Virus record (IMG/VR): IMGVR_UViG_3300042539_000771
Coordinates: 1 to 44,198 of that record
From: a virus
DNA length: 44,198 bases
Direction: 5' to 3' (one strand)
Of this stretch, positions 14,714 to 44,198 are shown piece after piece. Every line of letters starts with the position of its first letter. Positions within the stretch are counted from its first letter, which is position 1. The notes under the pieces were generated by a model that saw only the letters and a program-made list of their open reading frames with translations, did not search any database and had not been told where the DNA came from. Position numbers and translations under genes: made by a program.

Positions 14714-14813
14714 GGTCTTTTTCTTCGCTTTCTTTTCGGTCGCCCTTGCCGACTCGGTAACAATGGATCGGAGCCGGACCGGGCGCAAGATCTTTCTCTC
14801 GCGCCTCGGTCGA
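14714..14813 (-). promoter_or_regulatory. Promoter-leader module R2
   Basis: The -35 is TTGCGC (14783-14788), the spacer 17 bp and the -10 CATTGT (14760-14765). A left arm TCGACCGAGGCGC (minus strand, 14801-14813) pairs imperfectly across the -35. The leader contains GAGTCGGCAAGGGCGAC and a purine-rich stretch before the ATG. Confidence 0.75.
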
Positions 14814-18417: not shown

Positions 18418-18648
18418 CTAGGCGCCCTTCCCTCGGGCCGCCGCGGCCTTCGCCCCGTTGCGTAGGACCCGCGCCGCGCTCGCGCTCGCCATCGCCTCCA
18501 GGACGCCCGCGGAGCGTCCCGGAGCGGCGCCGGTAGCCTCGAGGCGCGCGGAGGGCGCCAGCGGGGCGCCGCGGGGCGCGGGAGCCGGCTCGAGCGCGGG
18601 AGCCTCGAGGTGCGGATCAAGCGAGGTGCGGATCTTTCGGTGCTTCAT
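18418..18648 (-). CDS. Small basic Ala/Pro-rich protein, first leftward gene
   Basis: This encodes 76 aa, MKHRKIRTSLDPHLEAPALEP at the start, with a disordered Pro/Ala middle and a basic Ala-rich C-terminus (ARVLRNGAKAAAARGKGA). It resembles small nucleic-acid-binding tails but has no recognisable domain. The ATG has a GAAAGGG Shine-Dalgarno, and a TGCTATACT box lies 20 nt upstream. It is the gene nearest the candidate origin on the leftward side. Confidence 0.55.
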   Translation of the reverse strand: MKHRKIRTSLDPHLEAPALEPAPAPRGAPLAPSARLEATGAAPGRSAGVLEAMASASAARVLRNGAKAAAARGKGA

Positions 18649-18668
18649 GCTTCGCCCTTTCGGCGGCG

Positions 18669-18677
18669 AGTATAGCA
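18669..18677 (-). promoter_or_regulatory. Extended -10 promoter for first leftward gene
   Basis: TGCTATACT is an almost ideal extended -10 (TGn-TATACT). There is no clear -35 at 17 bp. It gives a leader of about 13-14 nt with a Shine-Dalgarno, unlike the other TGCTAnnnT boxes. Confidence 0.6.
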
Positions 18678-18725
18678 GGTTCCGGAGCGGGCGCGGGCAC
18701 GGGAGCCGTTGTCCCGCGTGGCCCG

Positions 18726-18747
18726 ACCTTGGCCCGACCTTGGCCCG
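18726..18747. repeat. Tandem 11-bp repeat ACCTTGGCCCG x2
   Basis: Two perfect head-to-tail copies follow copy A directly, one helical turn each, as expected for adjacent binding of one protein. Confidence 0.6.
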
Positions 18748-18780
18748 CCGGGTGTGCGTTTCCTCACAAGCGGGCGAAGT

Positions 18781-18798
18781 GCCCGATCTTGCTCGGGA
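18781..18798. repeat. 18-bp repeat, copy 2 (GCCCGATCTTGCTCGGGA)
   Basis: This is identical to 13910-13927 and has the same small hairpin potential. It lies between iteron-like copies A and B. Confidence 0.6.
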
Positions 18799-19115
18799 TT
18801 TTCGGGCGTCGAAGGGCCTCGGACCTCAGTTGTCCCGCCTGGCCCGCCGATTTTCCTATTTTCGCTGGCGCGGGGAGTCAAGAGTCTATCTGCAATCCAA
18901 TTGCAATAGCTATCTAAACTCTGTGATCTTGTTGTGACGGTAGATCTGGCGGGCCACGCGGGACAAAAACCAAAAAACCCAGGCGGCGCATGACTTTAGC
19001 TCGGGTCGATCGAGGCGGGCCGAGGTCGGGCCGGGCCCGGGACAAATCTAGGCCGTTCGTCCGGTTTTCGCCATTTTGTCAATTATGCGGCAACCGCGCT
19101 AGCCTGTACGACATA

Positions 19116-19183
19116 CGTGAGATCCCGCACACGACCCCCGCCGGAGCCGGCGCCTCGCCCCTAGTCGTGTGCGCTAACTCACG
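19116..19183. repeat. Long interrupted palindrome upstream of primase promoter
   Basis: CGTGAG, 4 nt, CGCACACGAC (19116-19135) is mirrored by GTCGTGTGCG, 4 nt, CTCACG (19164-19183), with a 28-nt GC-rich centre. The 16 paired bases match perfectly and the 4-nt internal loops are placed symmetrically. It could extrude as a cruciform, fold as RNA, or bind a dimeric protein. Confidence 0.75.
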
Positions 19184-19219
19184 GATGAAGGCTATCCCGC
19201 CGCGGGCGCCGATAGGCGC

Positions 19220-19256
19220 TTGACACCTCGCCGGCTCCGATCCATGCTCCGGGCCG
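19220..19256 (+). promoter_or_regulatory. Rightward promoter R9 (leaderless)
   Basis: TTGACA (19220-19225), a 17-bp spacer and CATGCT (19243-19248) lie only 8 nt before the ATG at 19257, so the transcript should begin at or very near the start codon. The spacer shares GGCTCCGATC with module R2, so the same sigma factor or regulator may read both directions. Confidence 0.75.
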
Positions 19257-19748
19257 ATGACGAACGCGCTCGAGCCCCTCCCCGACTCCTGGGATCGTGA
19301 CGAATACCGCCGGTTCCGGGAGATCCTCGCCGCCGCCGGGATCGCGCTGGTATCGACGGTCCCCGTCAAGCCGGGGACGAAGATCCCGGCGATCCGCTGG
19401 GCCGACTTCGCTCCGGGCGAGGAAGGCCCGCACTACGCCGAAACGCAGGCGCGCCTATTGCTGACGGGCCGCCGCTCGAGCGGCCTCTCCGTGATCGACG
19501 TCGACACGAAGGGCGGAGGCTTCGACGCCCTAGAGCGCATCGAGGCGATGCACGGCGCCATCCCCCGCACCCTCTCCGTACGCTCGCCCACTGGCGGCCT
19601 GCATCTCTACGTGCTACCGTCAAGGCCTCTCCGCACGGTCGCCGGCGTCCCCGCCCGCGGGATCGATATCCGCGGAGAAGGCGGGGTCTGCATGGTCCCG
19701 GGCTCCGTTCACCCGCGAGGCGGGATCTACCGGATCGAGGATCAGTGA
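19257..19748 (+). CDS. Primase-polymerase (archaeo-eukaryotic primase fold)
   Basis: This encodes 163 aa, just the catalytic domain of the bifunctional DNA primase/polymerase family. Visible motifs are VIDVDTKGGG (Asp81, Asp83; metal ligands), GGLHLY (His116) and GIDIRGEGGVCMVPGS (Asp137), in the usual order. It would synthesise primers at the fork. The helicase normally fused behind this domain is a separate frame here, starting 4 nt before this one ends (GTGA). The start is fixed by promoter R9, with no Shine-Dalgarno. Confidence 0.85.
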   Translation: MTNALEPLPDSWDRDEYRRFREILAAAGIALVSTVPVKPGTKIPAIRWADFAPGEEGPHYAETQARLLLTGRRSSGLSVIDVDTKGGGFDALERIEAMHGAIPRTLSVRSPTGGLHLYVLPSRPLRTVAGVPARGIDIRGEGGVCMVPGSVHPRGGIYRIEDQ

Positions 19749-21535
19749 TCGCGACGCTCCCGGATTCTTGGCTCGCCTTGATCCCTCCGCCCGGCCTCGA
19801 CGCGGAGCGCACGCCCGTTGCTTATGACGGGGACGCGGACCTCCCGACCCTCCGCCAGCGGATCGCGGATCTCGCCGCGGGGAAGCGCGGGGACGAATGG
19901 GGCGTGATCCGCCGGCTCGCGCTCGGGGAGCGCCTCTTTCGGATCGAGGGCGGCCCCGGCTCGAGCGATCTCCCTCTCGTCGTGGGCGTCGACGAATTCC
20001 TCTCAAAGCGCGTGATCTGGACGCTCGCCGCGGAGCTTCCCACGGCTCCGCCGGACGCGATCTCCGCGATCTTCGCGCCCTCTCTTTCGATCCTTCGGGA
20101 CGACGTCGCGGGCCTCGGGGGCGCGTCCTCGCGCTGGACCGAGGAGCACGTCCGAGAGAAGTGGATCCGCGCCTCCGAGAAGATCGAGACCGAGAACGCC
20201 GGAGCGCGCGCGTTCACGGATCGGCTCCTCGCCTCGACCGCGGAGGGCGCCGAGAAGCGCGCGACCTCGCTCCCGCTCGTCGCGCAGTTTGACGATCGGT
20301 ATTTCGTTCTCGACGATCGCGCCGAGGACCGCGCGCGCTACGAAGGACCCATGAAGGGCGTGGCCTTGCGGTCGATGGCTCGAGCGCTTTGGGGAGAGTC
20401 CCGCGTCCTGGATCAGACGACCGCGAAAGGTGCAGCCCGACCTATGAGCCCCGCGGAGATCGTCGACGCCTACGGGGTTGCGATCTCGACGATCGCGACC
20501 GAATACAGCGCGCTCGCGCCGCGCGTGGACGGCTTGACCTTGACGCTACCTCCGCCCGTCGGCGACATCCCGGAGCCCCAAGAGGATCGCGACGTCGCGG
20601 CCTGGCTAGAGATCCTCGATCCCTCCGGAGGGGTGCTCGATTGGATCGCCTACGCGCGCCGCGATCGCTTGACGTCGACGGCTCCGGCGCTCGCTCTGAT
20701 CGGAGGGGCCCAGGTGGGGAAAAGCCTACTCGCGGACGCGGTCGCGCGCACCTTCGGGGCGCGCCGCGCGACGCCGCTCCGGCGCGTTCTCGGCCAGTTT
20801 GCCGCGATGTTGGCGGCCTGCCCGGTCCTATTCGCAGACGAAGGGATCCCGCGCGACCCCCGCACGGGCGTCCCCCTCACGGAGGAATTTCGCGCGCTCG
20901 TTACGTCGATGGACCACGTCATCGAGGCGAAGGGGACGGATAGGTCCGTCTACGTCCGCGGAGGCGTTCGCGTCGTCCTCGCCGCGAACCGGCTTGATCG
21001 CCTTTTCGCATCGAGGGGAGCCTACGGAGCCCACGATATCGCCGCGTTGGCCCGGCGCCTTTTCGTCGTGGAGATCACAGATCCGGGGCGCGTCGAGGCC
21101 GCGCGATCGGTCTCGGTAGGCCTCGGATCTTTCGAGGGCGATCCCGTTCGCTTGGGTCGCGTCGCGCGACACCTCTCCTGGATCCAGCGCGAGCGCGACG
21201 CGAAGCCCCCGACGCCCCGCGCCGCGTTGGTCGAGCGCGAGCTACGGATCGGCTCCGACGTCGCGAGGGAGGCCCTCGACGCCCTCGAGGATTCGTATCC
21301 GGTCCCGTGGATTGCGCTTGACGGGGCTACGGTTTGGGTTCAGGTTACGCCGTGGGTGCAGCGGACGACCGCCGGATCGCTCGCCCCGCTCGCCCGGGCC
21401 CTCGGCGCCTACATCACGCACCCGAGCGAGAAGCGCCGCACGCACCCGACCACGAAGGTCCCCGATCCCTCGCGCTCGCGCTGGATCGGGCTCGATAGGG
21501 TCCGCCTCGCGGTGGACGGAGTAACACTCGAATGA
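19745..21535 (+). CDS. Superfamily 3-type replicative helicase
   Basis: This encodes 596 aa. The C-terminal half has Walker A LIGGAQVGKS (318-327), Walker B VLFADEG (361-367) and a motif C region VVLAANRLD (410-418), the order of SF3 / D5-like phage helicases. The N-terminal 300 residues are helical with a beta-rich section (YFVLDDRAEDRARYE) and correspond to the region between primase and ATPase in fused proteins. It should unwind DNA at the origin with the primase. Start GTG at 19745 overlaps the primase stop. Confidence 0.85.
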   Translation: MIATLPDSWLALIPPPGLDAERTPVAYDGDADLPTLRQRIADLAAGKRGDEWGVIRRLALGERLFRIEGGPGSSDLPLVVGVDEFLSKRVIWTLAAELPTAPPDAISAIFAPSLSILRDDVAGLGGASSRWTEEHVREKWIRASEKIETENAGARAFTDRLLASTAEGAEKRATSLPLVAQFDDRYFVLDDRAEDRARYEGPMKGVALRSMARALWGESRVLDQTTAKGAARPMSPAEIVDAYGVAISTIATEYSALAPRVDGLTLTLPPPVGDIPEPQEDRDVAAWLEILDPSGGVLDWIAYARRDRLTSTAPALALIGGAQVGKSLLADAVARTFGARRATPLRRVLGQFAAMLAACPVLFADEGIPRDPRTGVPLTEEFRALVTSMDHVIEAKGTDRSVYVRGGVRVVLAANRLDRLFASRGAYGAHDIAALARRLFVVEITDPGRVEAARSVSVGLGSFEGDPVRLGRVARHLSWIQRERDAKPPTPRAALVERELRIGSDVAREALDALEDSYPVPWIALDGATVWVQVTPWVQRTTAGSLAPLARALGAYITHPSEKRRTHPTTKVPDPSRSRWIGLDRVRLAVDGVTLE

Positions 21536-21726: not shown

Positions 21727-23433
21727 ATGCGGATCAGTCCAAGCATGATCGGGCGCCTGCATACGTGCGCCCGGATCCCGTCGTGGATCCTCGTTCGAAA
21801 CGTCCGGTTCGGGGACGACGTCCAGAAGGGCGCGAACGCCCTCGGAACGCGGTGCCATTCCCTCGTGGAATCCTACCTACGCACCGGCGCGCTTCCGGCC
21901 CTCGATGAAACGCTCGATGTCCAGCGCGGCGAAGCGACCGAGATCGCATACCCCGGCGCCATCGTGGCGGAAGCGCTGCACACGCTCCCCGCTCCGGGTT
22001 ACGCGGAGATCGAGATCGGGGCCCAGATCCAGCGCGAAGGCCTGATCTTTTTCTCGAAAGCGGACTATCGGATCCGGACCGAGACCGGCTCCCGGATCGG
22101 CGATCACAAATTCGTTCGCGATCTCGGCTCCGCCCTCTCCGCGACGCCCGGATCGACGAATAGCTACGGGGAGCCCAACTACCTCGGGGCGAACGTCCAG
22201 GCATTGATCCTCGCCGCGTGCGAGCTTGACGCGCGCCCCGAGATCGACGCGGTCGATCTCGCCTGGCACTACACCCAAACCCGCCCCTCGCGAGGGCGCT
22301 ACCCTACGCGCGTCGTTTCGCTCCGGCTAGATCGCGAGGCCGTCGAGCGCGGGATTGCGGCGCACGTCCTTAGCCCCGGGCGTCAGATCCTCGAGATCAA
22401 GCGCTTGCGCGTTCTCCCGGAAATGCTACCAGTCCGCGCGGAGTCGTGCCGAACCTTCGGCCGAACCTGCGAATACTCCGAACATTGCGCACTGACAGAC
22501 GAACAGAGAGGAATCCAAGCCATGACAACGCCCGATCAAAGCCCCGCCGCGCTCGCTTCCACGCTCGACAGACTCCGCGCTCTCGCCGCGTCGCAGACGA
22601 TCGGCGCCCCGCCTCCGCCCGCGCCTCCGCCTCCGCCCGCGCCTCCGCCCGCGCCTCCGCCCGCGCCTCCGCCCGCGCCTCCGCCCGCGCCTCCGCCTCC
22701 GCCTCCGCCCGCGCCTCCGCCTCCGCCCGCGCCTCCGCCAGTTGACCCCCGGTTCTCGGTCGGCGCCCGCTGGAAATGTCACGGGCGCGAATTCGAGATC
22801 GTCTCCGTCGAGGGCGACGCGGTCCGCGGCCGCGTTCTCTCGGACCTCGCCAGCCTCGACACGACGATCCGGAGCCTCGAGGCGTACCCGGACGCATTCG
22901 CGTTCGTCGGAGCCCCCGCCGCCCCCTCGGTCGCCCTCGAGGGCCCCGACCCGATCAACCCGCCGGAGGCCGCGGGGGCACCGAACGACGGCACGCAGGG
23001 CCCGCCGGCGCCTCCGAAGCGGGACGACACCCCGCCGTCGTCCGGACGCTACGCGGCCCTCACGCGCGACGAAGCCAAGACCGAAGCGGTCCGCCGCGGG
23101 CTCCTGACTGCGTCGTCGCGACACGGGCTCCCGGCGATCGTCGCCATGCTCGAGAAGTACGATCACGAGCACCCCGAGGGCCCGCCGACGGTCTCGATCG
23201 TCGCGACGTCGGAGATCCCGGCCGGGGCGCTCGTGACGATGACGGGGGAGCCCGCCGCACCATTCACCCCCGAGGACGTCGTCGCCGGGTTCCGCATGAT
23301 CCCGGAGACGGAGGGGCGCGTCGAACCCGCAATCGATGCCGCCGCGATCCGCTCCGCGCTCGATCGGCTCGGTCGCGCCGTCGAGGAGATCCACGCCGCC
23401 GGTGACGCCCTCCGCGCCTTGATCGGCGCGTAG
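21727..23433 (+). CDS. PD-(D/E)XK nuclease with Fe-S cysteines, proline-rich arm and C-terminal domain
   Basis: This encodes 568 aa. Residues 1-265 look like a Cas4/AddB-type nuclease: RCHSLVESYL (Glu49), KADYRIR (Asp113) and GDHKF (Asp126, Lys128) form the active site, and Cys14 with Cys241, Cys248 and Cys254 gives the one-plus-three cysteine layout of a 4Fe-4S staple. Residues 294-338 are a Pro/Ala arm encoded by near-perfect 12-bp repeats. The C-terminal 230 residues hold a small beta domain (VGARWKCHGREFEIVSVEG) and a helical region. An ATG with GAGAGGAA at 22522 may start the arm and C-terminal domain separately. Confidence 0.8.
   Translation: MRISPSMIGRLHTCARIPSWILVRNVRFGDDVQKGANALGTRCHSLVESYLRTGALPALDETLDVQRGEATEIAYPGAIVAEALHTLPAPGYAEIEIGAQIQREGLIFFSKADYRIRTETGSRIGDHKFVRDLGSALSATPGSTNSYGEPNYLGANVQALILAACELDARPEIDAVDLAWHYTQTRPSRGRYPTRVVSLRLDREAVERGIAAHVLSPGRQILEIKRLRVLPEMLPVRAESCRTFGRTCEYSEHCALTDEQRGIQAMTTPDQSPAALASTLDRLRALAASQTIGAPPPPAPPPPPAPPPAPPPAPPPAPPPAPPPPPPPAPPPPPAPPPVDPRFSVGARWKCHGREFEIVSVEGDAVRGRVLSDLASLDTTIRSLEAYPDAFAFVGAPAAPSVALEGPDPINPPEAAGAPNDGTQGPPAPPKRDDTPPSSGRYAALTRDEAKTEAVRRGLLTASSRHGLPAIVAMLEKYDHEHPEGPPTVSIVATSEIPAGALVTMTGEPAAPFTPEDVVAGFRMIPETEGRVEPAIDAAAIRSALDRLGRAVEEIHAAGDALRALIGA
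22522..23433 (+). CDS. Possible separate product from internal start (proline arm plus C-terminal domain)
   Basis: The ATG at codon 266 of the nuclease frame follows GAGAGGAA with good spacing, exactly at the end of the nuclease domain. Initiation here would give 303 aa: a short helix, the proline-rich arm, a small beta domain and a helical C-terminus. Either a fusion or two overlapping products is possible. Assigned from the Shine-Dalgarno and domain boundary only. Confidence 0.35.
   Translation: MTTPDQSPAALASTLDRLRALAASQTIGAPPPPAPPPPPAPPPAPPPAPPPAPPPAPPPPPPPAPPPPPAPPPVDPRFSVGARWKCHGREFEIVSVEGDAVRGRVLSDLASLDTTIRSLEAYPDAFAFVGAPAAPSVALEGPDPINPPEAAGAPNDGTQGPPAPPKRDDTPPSSGRYAALTRDEAKTEAVRRGLLTASSRHGLPAIVAMLEKYDHEHPEGPPTVSIVATSEIPAGALVTMTGEPAAPFTPEDVVAGFRMIPETEGRVEPAIDAAAIRSALDRLGRAVEEIHAAGDALRALIGA
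22609..22740 (+). repeat. 12-bp coding repeats for a Pro/Ala arm
   Basis: GCGCCTCCGCCC-type units repeat in frame and encode Ala-Pro-Pro-Pro. Unit lengths vary by whole codons, so slippage changes arm length without breaking the frame. Confidence 0.8.
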
Positions 23434-23434
23434 C

Positions 23435-25162
23435 GTGGCGGGCGGAGTCCAACCCTCCGCCGATCTTGAGCGTATCCTCTCGGTCCCGCGGCGTTCGTGG
23501 GGCCTCGAGGATGCGCGCGGGGTCGCGCGCGATCTGACCGCGGCGCTCCGGACCCCGGCGGGGACGCAGACCCTCCTGGAGCACCAAGCCCTAGCGCTTC
23601 TCGAGATCGGGATCTACGGGGGAGCCTATCTCCCGCTCCCCGTCGGAGCCGGAAAGACCCTGATCTCCCTTCTCGCCTCGAGAATGCGTCCGGAGATCGT
23701 CCGGCCCCTGATCTTGACCCGCGCGAGCTTAGTCGAAAAGACGAAGATCGAAGAGATCGAGTATCGGAAAAACTGGATCCTCCCGTCGTTCTTTCGCGTC
23801 GAGTCGTTCGAGCGTATGTCTCGCGTCGGAGCCGCGGGATTCCTCGAGGCGTACGCGCCCGATCTGATCATCGTCGACGAAGCGCACGCGTTGAAAAACA
23901 GGTCCGCCGCCGTCACGCGCCGCGTGTTCCGGTACCTCCGCCAGAATCCCCGCGTGCTTCTCGTCGCGATGACGGGATCATCTATCGGCACCTCGATCCG
24001 CGACGTCGCGCATATCATGGGCCGGTGTCTCGGGGCGCGCTCCCCGCTCCCGCACCACCACCACGACGTCGAGGAATGGGCCGCGGCCCTCGACGTAGGC
24101 GGGCGCGCGCGCCGGCTCGAGCCCGGGGCCCTGCTCCGCCTCGCGAACCCCGGCGAGGACGCGCGCGCCGCGGTCTGTCGTCGGATCCTCGAGACCCCCG
24201 GGATCGTTGCGATGCGGGGGACGACTATCGACACCCCGATCCAGATCCGATCGCACGTCGCAGATCACGACGACGCGCAGACCGCCGCGCTCGCCGCGCT
24301 CCGGACGACGGGCGAGACCCCGGACGGCGAACTAGCCGAGGACGCGATCGCGATCTGGCGCCACGCGCGCGAGATCTCGCTCGGGTTCTATAGCGTGTGG
24401 GATCCGCCGGCGCCGCTCGAATGGAAGCACGCACGCCGGGAATGGCACTCGCATTGTAGGGACATTCTCGAGAGCAACCGACGCGATCTCGACTCCGCGG
24501 ATCAACTCGCGCGCCACCTCCGCGCGCACCCCGATCACTACCCCGAGGCCGCCGCGTCGCTCGAACGCTGGCGCGTCGTCGAGCCCTATTTCAGGCCCAA
24601 TCCGCGCGCGCGCTGGATCTCCGGATCGGCGATCGATTGGGTCGCGCGCTACCTCGCGAAAGACAAGCGCCCCGCGATCGTATGGACCGATCGGCCCGTC
24701 GTCGGCGAAGCCCTCCGCGCTCTCCTCGGGATCCCCTACTACGGCGAGGAAGGGGTAGACCTTGCGACGGGCGCCTACATCGGACACGCGCGCGGACAGA
24801 CGATCGCGACGTCGAGCCGCGCCGGCGCGACCGGCCACAACCTGCAAGCGTTCTCCCGGAATCTCTGCCTTGACATTCCGCGGAGCCCGATCGCATGGGA
24901 ACAGCGGATCGGACGCACGCACCGGCCCGGACAGACGGCGGATCTGATCTCGGTCGATCTCCTTTTCGGCGTTCGCGAGGACGTTTCTGCGTTCGCCGCC
25001 GCCCAAGAGTACGCAGCGAACGTAGAAGCATTGACAGGCGCCCCGCAAAAGCTATGCTCCGCCGACTGTACCGAAGTCCTAGCCCCCGACGAGATCGAAG
25101 GAAAGAAGGAACCACGATGGCAAAAACCGAAGTTCAGTCTCTCACGTTCCCAGGATGGGTGA
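23435..25162 (+). CDS. SNF2/SF2-type DNA-dependent ATPase
   Basis: This encodes 575 aa. Motifs in order are: HQALALLEIG, Walker A PVGAGKT (69-75), DEAH (148-151), MTGSS (motif III), and WEQRIGRTHRPGQT near the C-terminus (motif VI of SNF2 proteins). Members remodel or translocate on DNA without strand separation and are common in phage replication clusters. Start GTG at 23435, two codons after the nuclease stop. The C-terminus overlaps the next gene by 46 nt. Confidence 0.85.
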   Translation: MAGGVQPSADLERILSVPRRSWGLEDARGVARDLTAALRTPAGTQTLLEHQALALLEIGIYGGAYLPLPVGAGKTLISLLASRMRPEIVRPLILTRASLVEKTKIEEIEYRKNWILPSFFRVESFERMSRVGAAGFLEAYAPDLIIVDEAHALKNRSAAVTRRVFRYLRQNPRVLLVAMTGSSIGTSIRDVAHIMGRCLGARSPLPHHHHDVEEWAAALDVGGRARRLEPGALLRLANPGEDARAAVCRRILETPGIVAMRGTTIDTPIQIRSHVADHDDAQTAALAALRTTGETPDGELAEDAIAIWRHAREISLGFYSVWDPPAPLEWKHARREWHSHCRDILESNRRDLDSADQLARHLRAHPDHYPEAAASLERWRVVEPYFRPNPRARWISGSAIDWVARYLAKDKRPAIVWTDRPVVGEALRALLGIPYYGEEGVDLATGAYIGHARGQTIATSSRAGATGHNLQAFSRNLCLDIPRSPIAWEQRIGRTHRPGQTADLISVDLLFGVREDVSAFAAAQEYAANVEALTGAPQKLCSADCTEVLAPDEIEGKKEPRWQKPKFSLSRSQDG

Positions 25163-26256: not shown

Positions 26257-26550
26257 ATGCGCGCAACGACGGAACACGCCTGGATCGAGGGCCCGCGGTG
26301 GTCTCAATGCTCCCGATGCAGCGCGCGCGCGCACTGGATCGACGCCTCGCAGGCGTGCCCGGGGGCGCCGAAGAAAGACGACGAGATCGGGATCGAGATC
26401 GCGATCGCGCGGATCCGATCTGACCTCGACGTGTTCCGTTTTTGGTGGCTCGGACGGGTCGATCTCGGAACGACGCGCCCGAGCCTCGCCGAATGGCGCG
26501 CGGAGTTTCTCGAATGGTCGCGCGCGAACGGCGCGAGCGCGGCGCCGTGA
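26257..26550 (+). CDS. Small Cys-rich protein before DNA polymerase
   Basis: This encodes 97 aa. The N-terminal third has CSRCSARAHWIDASQACPG, a CxxC plus Cys/His pattern that probably binds zinc. The rest is helical with several Trp residues (FRFWWLGRVDLG, LAEWRAEFLEW). The ATG at 26257 was chosen over an earlier one because GGAGGA lies 8 nt before it. Overlaps the polymerase start as GTGA. Confidence 0.65.
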   Translation: MRATTEHAWIEGPRWSQCSRCSARAHWIDASQACPGAPKKDDEIGIEIAIARIRSDLDVFRFWWLGRVDLGTTRPSLAEWRAEFLEWSRANGASAAP

Positions 26551-28649
26551 AGATCTTCGGCCTGGATACCGAGACGTATCCGATCAAGCCCGCCCGCCAG
26601 GCGCCGCGCGTCGTTTGTGTCCAAACCCGCGACGAGACCGGGAGCCGCGTCGAGTTACGCGATCCCGGGCTCGATCGCCTCGAGTCCGCGCTAGCGGATC
26701 GCGCGGTCCTGATCGTGGGTCACGACGTCGGATACGACGCCCTCGCCTCGATCGCGACGCGCCCGCGCTTGCTCCTTCCATGGCTCGACGCGTACGAAGC
26801 CGATCGCGTTGTCTGCACCCACGTCCGGGAGAGCCTCGCGCGGATCGCCGAGGGCTCGAGCGATCGACACCGCGATCGCTCGCTCCTGGGGTGCGTCGAG
26901 CGGTACAAGATCCCGCACGCTTTCGAGACCGGAGACAAAGACAAGGGCTCCGTGCGGACCCGGTTTCACGAAGTCGACGGGATCCCCGTCTCCGCCTGGC
27001 CCGAGGGTTTCGAGCGGTACGCGCTGGCGGACCTCGTCGCCGTCGACGTTTTCGAGGCCCAGCGCGCCGCGTTCTCGCCCGCGTGGTTTCAGGATCAGTA
27101 TCGCCGCTCGCGCGCGGATTTTTGGCTGCGCGTCACCTCCGCCCACGGGATGCGAGTCGACGCTCGAGCCGTTGCTCGCTTCGCCGCGCTTGTCGAGGAG
27201 GAGCACCGGACGTGCCTTGCGATCCTCGCGGACGCGAACGAGGCCGCGCTGGCGCGCTTCGCGGACGATCACGATCTCGAGCGCGTCGACGCGGTCCCGC
27301 CGGTCCGCGGTCTCGTCCGCTACGAAGGGACGCGCGACCTCAAAGCCGCGCGCGCCCGCATGGAGTCCGTGTGCCTCGCTCGAGCGCTCCCCGTGCCCGT
27401 CACGGCGACCGGAAAAGAGAAGGGGCTCGACGTTGGGGCCGGCGCTTACGTCGCCTTGGACGCGGACGCCTGCGCCGCTTCGGGCGATCTCCAGCTTCGC
27501 GCCTATGCTCGCTTCACCTCGATCGGGACGCTCCGGAGCCGGGCCGATCGCCTCGCCCTCGCCGCGCGTCTCGGGGTCCCCGTACAACCCCGCTTCGATC
27601 CGCTGAAAAAGACGGGCCGGACCTCATGTAGCAAGGGAGAATCCGCACCCGGCGAGCCGCTAAACGCGGTCGGGGACCAGACTCAGAACCTCAACCGCGA
27701 GCCGGGCCTGCGCGAATGCTACGTCGCGCGCCCGGGGTGCGTGATCCTCTCGGGCGACTGGAAAGCCGCGGAGCTTCACACGCTCGCCCAGACTTGCGCG
27801 GATTGGGGCCTTGACTCCAACCTCGCGCGGGTTCTCCGGGAAAAGGACGCGCACGTTTGGTTCGGCGCGATCTCGCAGGGCTGGACGTACGAATACGCGA
27901 TCGAGGCCCTCCGCGGGGATCACGGGCCCGAGGCGAAAAAGAAGGCGAAAGCCGCGCGCCAAGGCGCGAAGGCCTGCAATTTCGGATTCCCGGGAGGGCT
28001 CGGGATCGCGAAGTTTCGAGCTTGGGCCGCGAAAACGTACGGAGTGATCTGGAGCGAGGCGGAGGCCTCGAGGCGCAAGGCCCAATGGCTCGACGCTTTC
28101 CCGGAAATGTTCGGATACTTCCGGATCGTCGATCGGATCGTCAACTCCGGCGCGCCGCTCGAGCATCCCCGCTCGGGTCGGTTCCGCGGGGATCTGACGT
28201 TCACGAGCGCCGCGAATTCGCCTTTCCAGGGCCGGTGCGCGGACATGCTCGTTGACGCGGGCTGGAGATCGATGGCCTGGATCTACCGCAACGGAATCCC
28301 GGCGCGGACGTGGAACGAGGCGCATGACGAGATCCTTTTCGAGATCCGAGAGGATCAGGCGCACGAGATCGCGACCGAGATCACGAAGATCATGGACGAC
28401 GTCGGCCGCGAATGGTGCCCGATCGCTCCGTGTCGCGCGGAGCCCGCGCTACAACGACACTGGCGGAAGGGCGCGGAGCCTGCGTACCGCGCGAGGCGCC
28501 TGATCCCGCACGAGGATCGGGACCTCGGCCCGGAGGATCTCGAGTCGATCCGAAAGGCTCTAGCGTCGGGCGAAGACGCCTTGCGCGTCTCTTGGACCTA
28601 TGGTATCGAGGAGTCGCGAGCGATCGCGATCGAAAGGGGCGGACGATGA
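26547..28649 (+). CDS. Family A DNA polymerase with 3'-5' exonuclease
   Basis: This encodes 700 aa from a GTG at 26547 (GTGA overlap). The exonuclease motifs are FGLDTET (Asp7, Glu9), VGHDVGYDA and a YALADLVAVDVF region (Exo III). The polymerase motifs are A (SGDWKAAELHTLAQ, Asp404), B (QGAKACNFGFPGG, Asn478) and C (NEAHDEILFE, His593-Asp594-Glu595). All key residues are in place. Its size fits T7-like and phage PolA enzymes. It leads a chain of genes with overlaps of only a few nt (usually 4) to 33032, so it is coexpressed with the ligase and nucleotide enzymes. Confidence 0.9.
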   Translation: MKIFGLDTETYPIKPARQAPRVVCVQTRDETGSRVELRDPGLDRLESALADRAVLIVGHDVGYDALASIATRPRLLLPWLDAYEADRVVCTHVRESLARIAEGSSDRHRDRSLLGCVERYKIPHAFETGDKDKGSVRTRFHEVDGIPVSAWPEGFERYALADLVAVDVFEAQRAAFSPAWFQDQYRRSRADFWLRVTSAHGMRVDARAVARFAALVEEEHRTCLAILADANEAALARFADDHDLERVDAVPPVRGLVRYEGTRDLKAARARMESVCLARALPVPVTATGKEKGLDVGAGAYVALDADACAASGDLQLRAYARFTSIGTLRSRADRLALAARLGVPVQPRFDPLKKTGRTSCSKGESAPGEPLNAVGDQTQNLNREPGLRECYVARPGCVILSGDWKAAELHTLAQTCADWGLDSNLARVLREKDAHVWFGAISQGWTYEYAIEALRGDHGPEAKKKAKAARQGAKACNFGFPGGLGIAKFRAWAAKTYGVIWSEAEASRRKAQWLDAFPEMFGYFRIVDRIVNSGAPLEHPRSGRFRGDLTFTSAANSPFQGRCADMLVDAGWRSMAWIYRNGIPARTWNEAHDEILFEIREDQAHEIATEITKIMDDVGREWCPIAPCRAEPALQRHWRKGAEPAYRARRLIPHEDRDLGPEDLESIRKALASGEDALRVSWTYGIEESRAIAIERGGR

Positions 28650-43860: not shown

Positions 43861-44198
43861 CCGAAGAGTCTAGCACCGCGGCGCGGGACATCGGTCGGAG
43901 GACGCTCGATGAAATCCGCTCCGACGCGTCGACGCCCCTCGGCCAGCCCACGCGAATCGCGACAAAGCGCACGATGAGAGCAGGCGCCACTCCGGCGATC
44001 GTAAGGACGCCCGCGCCGGGCTCGATGCTCCGAGTAGCGGCGAAAATCAGCGCCGGCGCCAGGCCGGAGACCGCTACGGCGCCGGAGGGCGGCGCGAGAG
44101 CGGCGCGGAGCGCCGGCGCCAGGCCGGAGGTCGCTACGGCGCCGGAGGGCGGCGCGAGAGCGGCGCGGAGCGCCGGCGCCAGGCCGGAGGTCGCTACG
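43829..44198 (-). CDS. Repeat-bearing virion protein, C-terminal part (gene runs off the right edge)
   Basis: This is an open frame of 122 codons and the stop, continuing to the right edge. It holds 20-residue repeats (GLAPALRAALAPPSGAVATS-type) encoded by a perfect 60-bp DNA repeat, then SIEPGAGVLTIAGVAPALIV, a motif typical of Gly/Ala-Leu-Thr-Ile repeats in phage virion proteins. The window ends join in frame to the start at 227, giving 198 aa; the match of frame and operon order supports it being one gene. Stop at 43829-43831. Confidence 0.65.
   Translation of the reverse strand, partial: VATSGLAPALRAALAPPSGAVATSGLAPALRAALAPPSGAVAVSGLAPALIFAATRSIEPGAGVLTIAGVAPALIVRFVAIRVGWPRGVDASERISSSVLRPMSRAAVLDSSGAVVVHVPSG
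44051..44198. repeat. 60-bp tandem repeat at the right edge
   Basis: The unit repeats exactly every 60 bp: 44111-44160 repeats 44051-44100 with two changes near 44080, and 44161-44198 repeats 44101-44138 exactly. About 2.5 units are visible and the array runs to the edge. Sixty bases are 20 codons, so copies add or remove whole protein repeats. Confidence 0.85.

Follow-up and report, generated by a model that had tools for sequence, protein, structure and literature searches.

The 44,198-nucleotide stretch of DNA analysed here, designated the window, is IMG/VR record IMGVR_UViG_3300042539_000771 and derives from an uncultivated tailed phage. Within it, a region of about 340 bases (18709-19045) carries short repeats in both orientations and has divergent gene blocks on either side. 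The original prediction, made from the sequence alone, regarded this region as a probable replication origin or master control region, which raises the question of the function that the repeats serve. The analysis of the repeats, of a close relative and of other viral contigs suggests that the region is in all likelihood the replication origin of the phage, with an organization of the iteron type.

Gene Organization around the Repeat Region

Codon statistics selected no gene in the interval 18648-19257. As had been predicted, this region separates two divergent units, with minus-strand genes to the left and plus-strand replication genes to the right. Left of the array, small minus-strand genes are followed by head and packaging genes, including those for terminase and portal, and the tail genes, also on the minus strand, are located at both outer ends of the window. 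The expected primase and helicase neighbours were identified to the right of the array, all on the plus strand. They comprise a Prim-Pol primase/polymerase domain protein of 163 aa (19257-19748; PF09250, E 2.3e-21) and an SF3-type helicase of 596 aa, the candidate initiator (19745-21535), whose match to DUF5906 is borderline, with 27.5 bits just below the cut-off of 27.6. Further downstream, an SF2/SNF2-like helicase of 575 aa (23435-25162; phrog_62, E 1.7e-18) and a family A DNA polymerase (26442-28649; PF00476, E 2.5e-13; phrog_17, E 1.7e-34) are encoded. For the 596-aa protein, the Walker A motif GGAQVGKS, the Walker B motif FADEG and the motif C LAAN were read off the translation.

Two other repeats were observed in the window. 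At 22604-22739, a codon-scale tandem repeat codes for a proline/alanine-rich linker in a 568-aa open reading frame, and its length varies among relatives. At the extreme end of the record, a 60-bp unit is repeated 2.5 times (44049-44198), which may be a genuine end feature or an effect of the assembly. GC skew was also considered as an origin marker. The cumulative G-C minimum is located at 27,733 and the detrended maximum at 19,052, at the switch of gene direction; since skew is confounded with transcription and gene direction, it was uninformative and was dropped.

The Repeat Unit and Its Arrangement

The 17-bp repeat TTGTCCCGCSTGGCCCG is present in three exact copies, at 18709-18725 and 18830-18846 on the plus strand and at 18950-18966 on the minus strand, with the start spacings of 121 and 120 bp that had been predicted. 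No further site was found in the whole window when up to three mismatches were allowed. At this tolerance, three matches were reached in 8 of 100 shuffles, so that the 17-mer is marginal by this measure, while the three real copies are perfect.

The basic unit is a heptamer, TG[T/G]CCCG, with a phasing of 9-11 bp, rather than the 17-mer. The array contains nine exact heptamers and two CGGCCCG variants, giving 11 units in four clusters. Cluster 1 (18709-18747, plus strand) consists of exact matches phased by 9-11 bp, namely TGTCCCG at 18710 and TGGCCCG at 18719, 18730 and 18741, and cluster 2 (18830-18847, plus strand) contains TGTCCCG at 18831 and TGGCCCG at 18840. Cluster 3 (18950-18966, minus strand) is inverted, with TGGCCCG at 18950 and TGTCCCG at 18959. 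Cluster 4 is likewise inverted, with 11-bp phasing, and contains TGTCCCG at 19038 and CGGCCCG at 19027 and 19016. It corresponds to the degraded fourth copy of the original prediction, which exists on the minus strand as TTGTCCCGGGCCCGGCCCGACCTCGGCCCG but extends over 19016-19045, somewhat wider than the position 19032 given for it. Clusters 1 and 2 (4+2 units) on the plus strand and clusters 3 and 4 (2+3 units) on the minus strand thus form two sets which converge.

TG[GT]CCCG occurs 20 times genome-wide, with nine copies in the 335 bp of the array and 11 in the remaining 44 kb. The scan p-value of 1.5e-12 represents the strongest clustering among all heptamers with one two-fold position; in 20 Markov-simulated genomes, used as the null, the best value was 4e-7. 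Rfam, tRNA and promoter/terminator consensus scans gave no result.

The AT-richer stretch predicted between the second and third copies was identified between clusters 2 and 3 (18848-18949). This spacer of 102 bp, the presumed melting region (DUE), has an AT content of 55%, compared to 32% for the genome (68% GC). According to nearest-neighbour energies, the lowest stability of any 100-bp segment in the 44,198 bp is found at 18849-18948, and that of any 60-bp segment in the one starting at 18875.

Conservation in a Related Contig

Contig IMGVR_UViG_3300042475_002790, designated L003, is the sole informative relative found; a search for further relatives with the SF2 helicase and the family A polymerase gave the same three contigs and no others, and one of these begins downstream of the probable origin. 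The flanks of L003 are about 96-99% identical to the window on both sides, and for the Prim-Pol and SF3 proteins the identity is 98-99%. Clusters 1, 2 and 4 show identities of 95%, 94% and 93%, respectively, and the 4-2-2-3 units are kept together with their strands. In cluster 3 of L003, the heptamer pair occurs in swapped order, and in cluster 4 all three units are TG[TG]CCCG. The absence of copies at the same place in related phages had been named as evidence against an origin; L003 carries the element at this place.

The spacers are conserved to a different degree. Between clusters 1 and 2 (82 bp in the window versus 48 bp in L003) and in the AT-rich core (102 versus 122 bp), the alignment of window and L003 gave scores that fall inside the range obtained with 200 shuffles. 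Conservation was moderate (74-75%) in the spacer separating clusters 3 and 4 and in the 145 bp that follow cluster 4. In L003, the least stable segment occupies the same position as in the window, and its sequence is not conserved. Since L003 keeps the units, their strands and the unstable segment despite diverged spacers, the constraint appears to act mainly on the heptamers and melting, and not on spacing. A regular spacing of about 120 bp had been taken as a feature of the region; L003 differs in this respect, with 87/140/87 bp between its TGTCCCG heptamers versus 121/128/79 bp in the window, and as it is not conserved, the 121/120-bp regularity looks incidental.

Two differences were noted between the array and the Prim-Pol gene. 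L003 contains about 280 extra bp there (L003:4190-4480) which are absent from the window, with an open reading frame that by eye resembles a MerR-type helix-turn-helix protein. In the window, an imperfect 24-bp inverted repeat (GCACACGAC...GTCGTGTGC; 19112-19135/19164-19187) precedes the Prim-Pol promoter, and it is less perfect in L003.

The Heptamer in Other Viral Contigs

Public viral contigs were scanned for three consecutive copies of TG[GT]CCCG, a test that covers association with replication genes and not function, and at least 120 loci were identified. Dense arrays, with at least six copies in 400 bp on both strands, were present at 55 of the 120 listed loci versus 1 of 120 for a permuted word. 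A member of a RepA-type helicase family was located at most 300 bp away at 50 of the 120 listed loci and an O-like initiator family at 17, with one or the other at 67, versus 0 of 120 in the permuted-word control in each case; both family models derive from proteins encoded at the test loci, and the argument therefore rests on the control and not on the raw count. Among 45 scanned members of the helicase family, 33 match AAA_25 and 11 Prim-Pol, while the O-like assignment is based on matches to phrog_345 and related families in one member only. At the listed loci, the array is usually found at the 3' end of the RepA-type helicase gene. In 22 of 55 cases, the 80-bp segment of lowest stability at the locus lies near the array, with 5.1 expected.

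A convergent layout like that of the window was identified at locus L088, with five copies, an AT-rich stretch of 204 bp and four copies; here, a DUF5906 helicase is encoded 2.8 kb from the array. Pairwise BLAST between the SF3 proteins of the window, L088 and L062 was not significant.

Related primase-helicase genes of other phages carry different words in the same place, right behind the gene, with 13 GTGACA in phage 16-3 (L138:5875) and 11 CTACAA in CRP-823 (L149:4097). Such arrays thus appear to be a general origin-like feature, for which TGTCCCG would be one common word. A further dense hexamer array, with 12 copies of GTTGAA, was observed directly behind or inside a phage primase-helicase gene (L139:4484). 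Among the sequence relatives of the window's Prim-Pol (L009-L017 and named phages), none carries an array of this kind, so the heptamer is not tied to this Prim-Pol lineage. The 17-mer was found in other collections in 10 viral and 106 genome stretches, mostly as isolated copies near chance level, and in the few stretches with at least five heptamers neither initiator family was present. The limited literature set searched contained no relevant paper on TGTCCC iterons or Prim-Pol phage origins.

Comparison to Known Origins

The Rep proteins of phage-inducible chromosomal islands (PICIs) are of the SF3 type. Fillol-Salom et al. described a pair of iteron sets on either side of an AT-rich region as typical for PICIs and not known from other bacterial replicons, and showed by cloning that PICI replication depends on rep and ori (PMC6092414). 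The window shares this layout, with 4+2 units, an AT-rich region and 2+3 units. However, PICI/SaPI origins lie immediately 3' of rep, whereas the array is located upstream (5') of the Prim-Pol and SF3-type genes, and a PICI is a helper-dependent island, whereas genes for terminase, portal, tail sheath, baseplate and tape measure are all present in the window. Since position and gene content differ, the window is not a PICI, although its array would resemble a PICI origin in its working.

The TG[T/G]CCCG arrays at RepA-type helicase genes (AAA_25, some with Prim-Pol) have the heptamer, the phasing of about one turn, the presence on both strands and the replication neighbour in common with the window. 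They differ in their location at the 3' end of the helicase gene and in being nearly all TGTCCCG, while the window array is upstream, mixes TGT and TGG units and neighbours an SF3-type helicase. AAA_25 was not detected in the ten replication-block proteins of the window that were scanned, and nothing in the window matched the C-terminal domain shared by the RepA-type family.

In lambda-type origins, the iterons are located within the gene for the O-like initiator. The same was described for TP901-1 and Tuc2009, with iterons inside the initiator gene (PMC8965321). The window resembles these systems in having a probable iteron-based origin beside replication genes, but its array is intergenic; in comparison to L003, two spacers differ in length by 34 and 20 bp, and a reading frame is therefore not kept across the array. 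No O-like or DnaD-like initiator was found among the window proteins scanned. Origins with DnaA boxes likewise have an AT-rich melting region beside arrays of binding sites; a DnaA-dependent origin was rejected, as no TTATNCACA box was found in the 44 kb.

Alternative Roles of the Array

Instead of iterons, the heptamers might be operators, at which a cooperative phage regulator controls the divergent promoters, leftward for the small genes and rightward for the replication operon. The array lies in a divergent intergenic region, cluster 1 is about 35 bp from the TATACT box of the leftward 76-aa gene, and initiators bound to iterons often autoregulate as well. A promoter-like module, TTGACA-N17-CATGCT, was read from the sequence in front of the Prim-Pol gene (19220-19248, plus strand); it aligns unchanged in L003 and was not reported by a generic sigma-70 scan. 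This module lies 175 bp away from cluster 4, which holds the nearest iteron, and is one of five related ones, the others being located at 14773, 15159, 17849 and 18370 on the minus strand. All stand before small early genes and Prim-Pol and share TTGCGC or TTGACA, N17, a CATTCT-like hexamer and a common spacer ending in TCCGATC; they probably form a common early promoter set. With the Prim-Pol module at this distance and part of a series whose related modules lack heptamers, the transcriptional master control role of the original prediction found no support. Operators would also not need a least stable segment between inverted sets, and the identical word is present at replication genes of other phages. 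A purely regulatory array is thus unlikely, but the array may have a dual role, as origin and in autoregulating the leftward promoter close to cluster 1.

Arrays resembling iterons are also used as par sites by plasmids, and a tailed phage requires a start site for packaging. A partition (centromere-like) or packaging site is, however, very improbable here: no ParA/ParB match was obtained among the proteins scanned, the large terminase and portal genes are located at 8.7-11.7 kb, 7 kb from the array, and a melting core is expected for neither function. That the repeats represent composition noise in a GC-rich intergenic region, as the shuffles of the 17-mer could suggest, is the least probable explanation and is strongly disfavoured by the heptamer scan against its null and by the selective conservation in L003. 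The operator, partition and packaging explanations are weaker because they account for fewer features, whereas an iteron origin accounts for the phasing, the opposed sets, the melting core, the selective conservation and the adjoining replication operon.

A Model for Initiation and Its Implications

The origin reading of the original prediction is supported by the convergent iterons, the unstable core, the iteron conservation in L003 and the database-wide tie between the word and initiator genes. For an iteron origin, it is proposed that an initiator would bind the TG[T/G]CCCG heptamers, about one helical turn apart and on the same face of the DNA, in two facing sets. Loading of both sets would strain and open the AT-rich 100 bp between them, and the initiator, or a helicase recruited by it, could then be loaded at the core in two opposite directions. 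Prim-Pol would lay primers, to be extended by the family A polymerase of the phage.

The SF3-type protein of 596 aa is a natural candidate for the initiator, since the Rep proteins of PICIs pair with a primase likewise (PMC6092414). Given an origin, the chances that it acts as the initiator are put at about even. No DNA-binding domain could be assigned in this protein, including by C-terminal domain match, no PDB sequence match was obtained, and its structure prediction was unusable (pLDDT 34).

A broader and more tentative proposal, regarded as possible and rather doubtful, is that TGTCCCG marks origins in many tailed phages with non-homologous replication proteins (RepA-type, O-like and SF3-type), the window included. 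If true, one origin word would imply a shared, as yet unnamed recognition factor, from host or phage, or strong convergence. The wider scan provides a means of finding origins in uncultivated phages by searching for a word, and with it comes the question of what protein recognizes TGTCCCG in replication systems that are unrelated to one another. The matches found include no close cultivated relative of this phage group, for which the region offers a short testable stretch of DNA together with a candidate initiator. A full-size phage would thereby have an origin layout that has been described as restricted to phage satellites.
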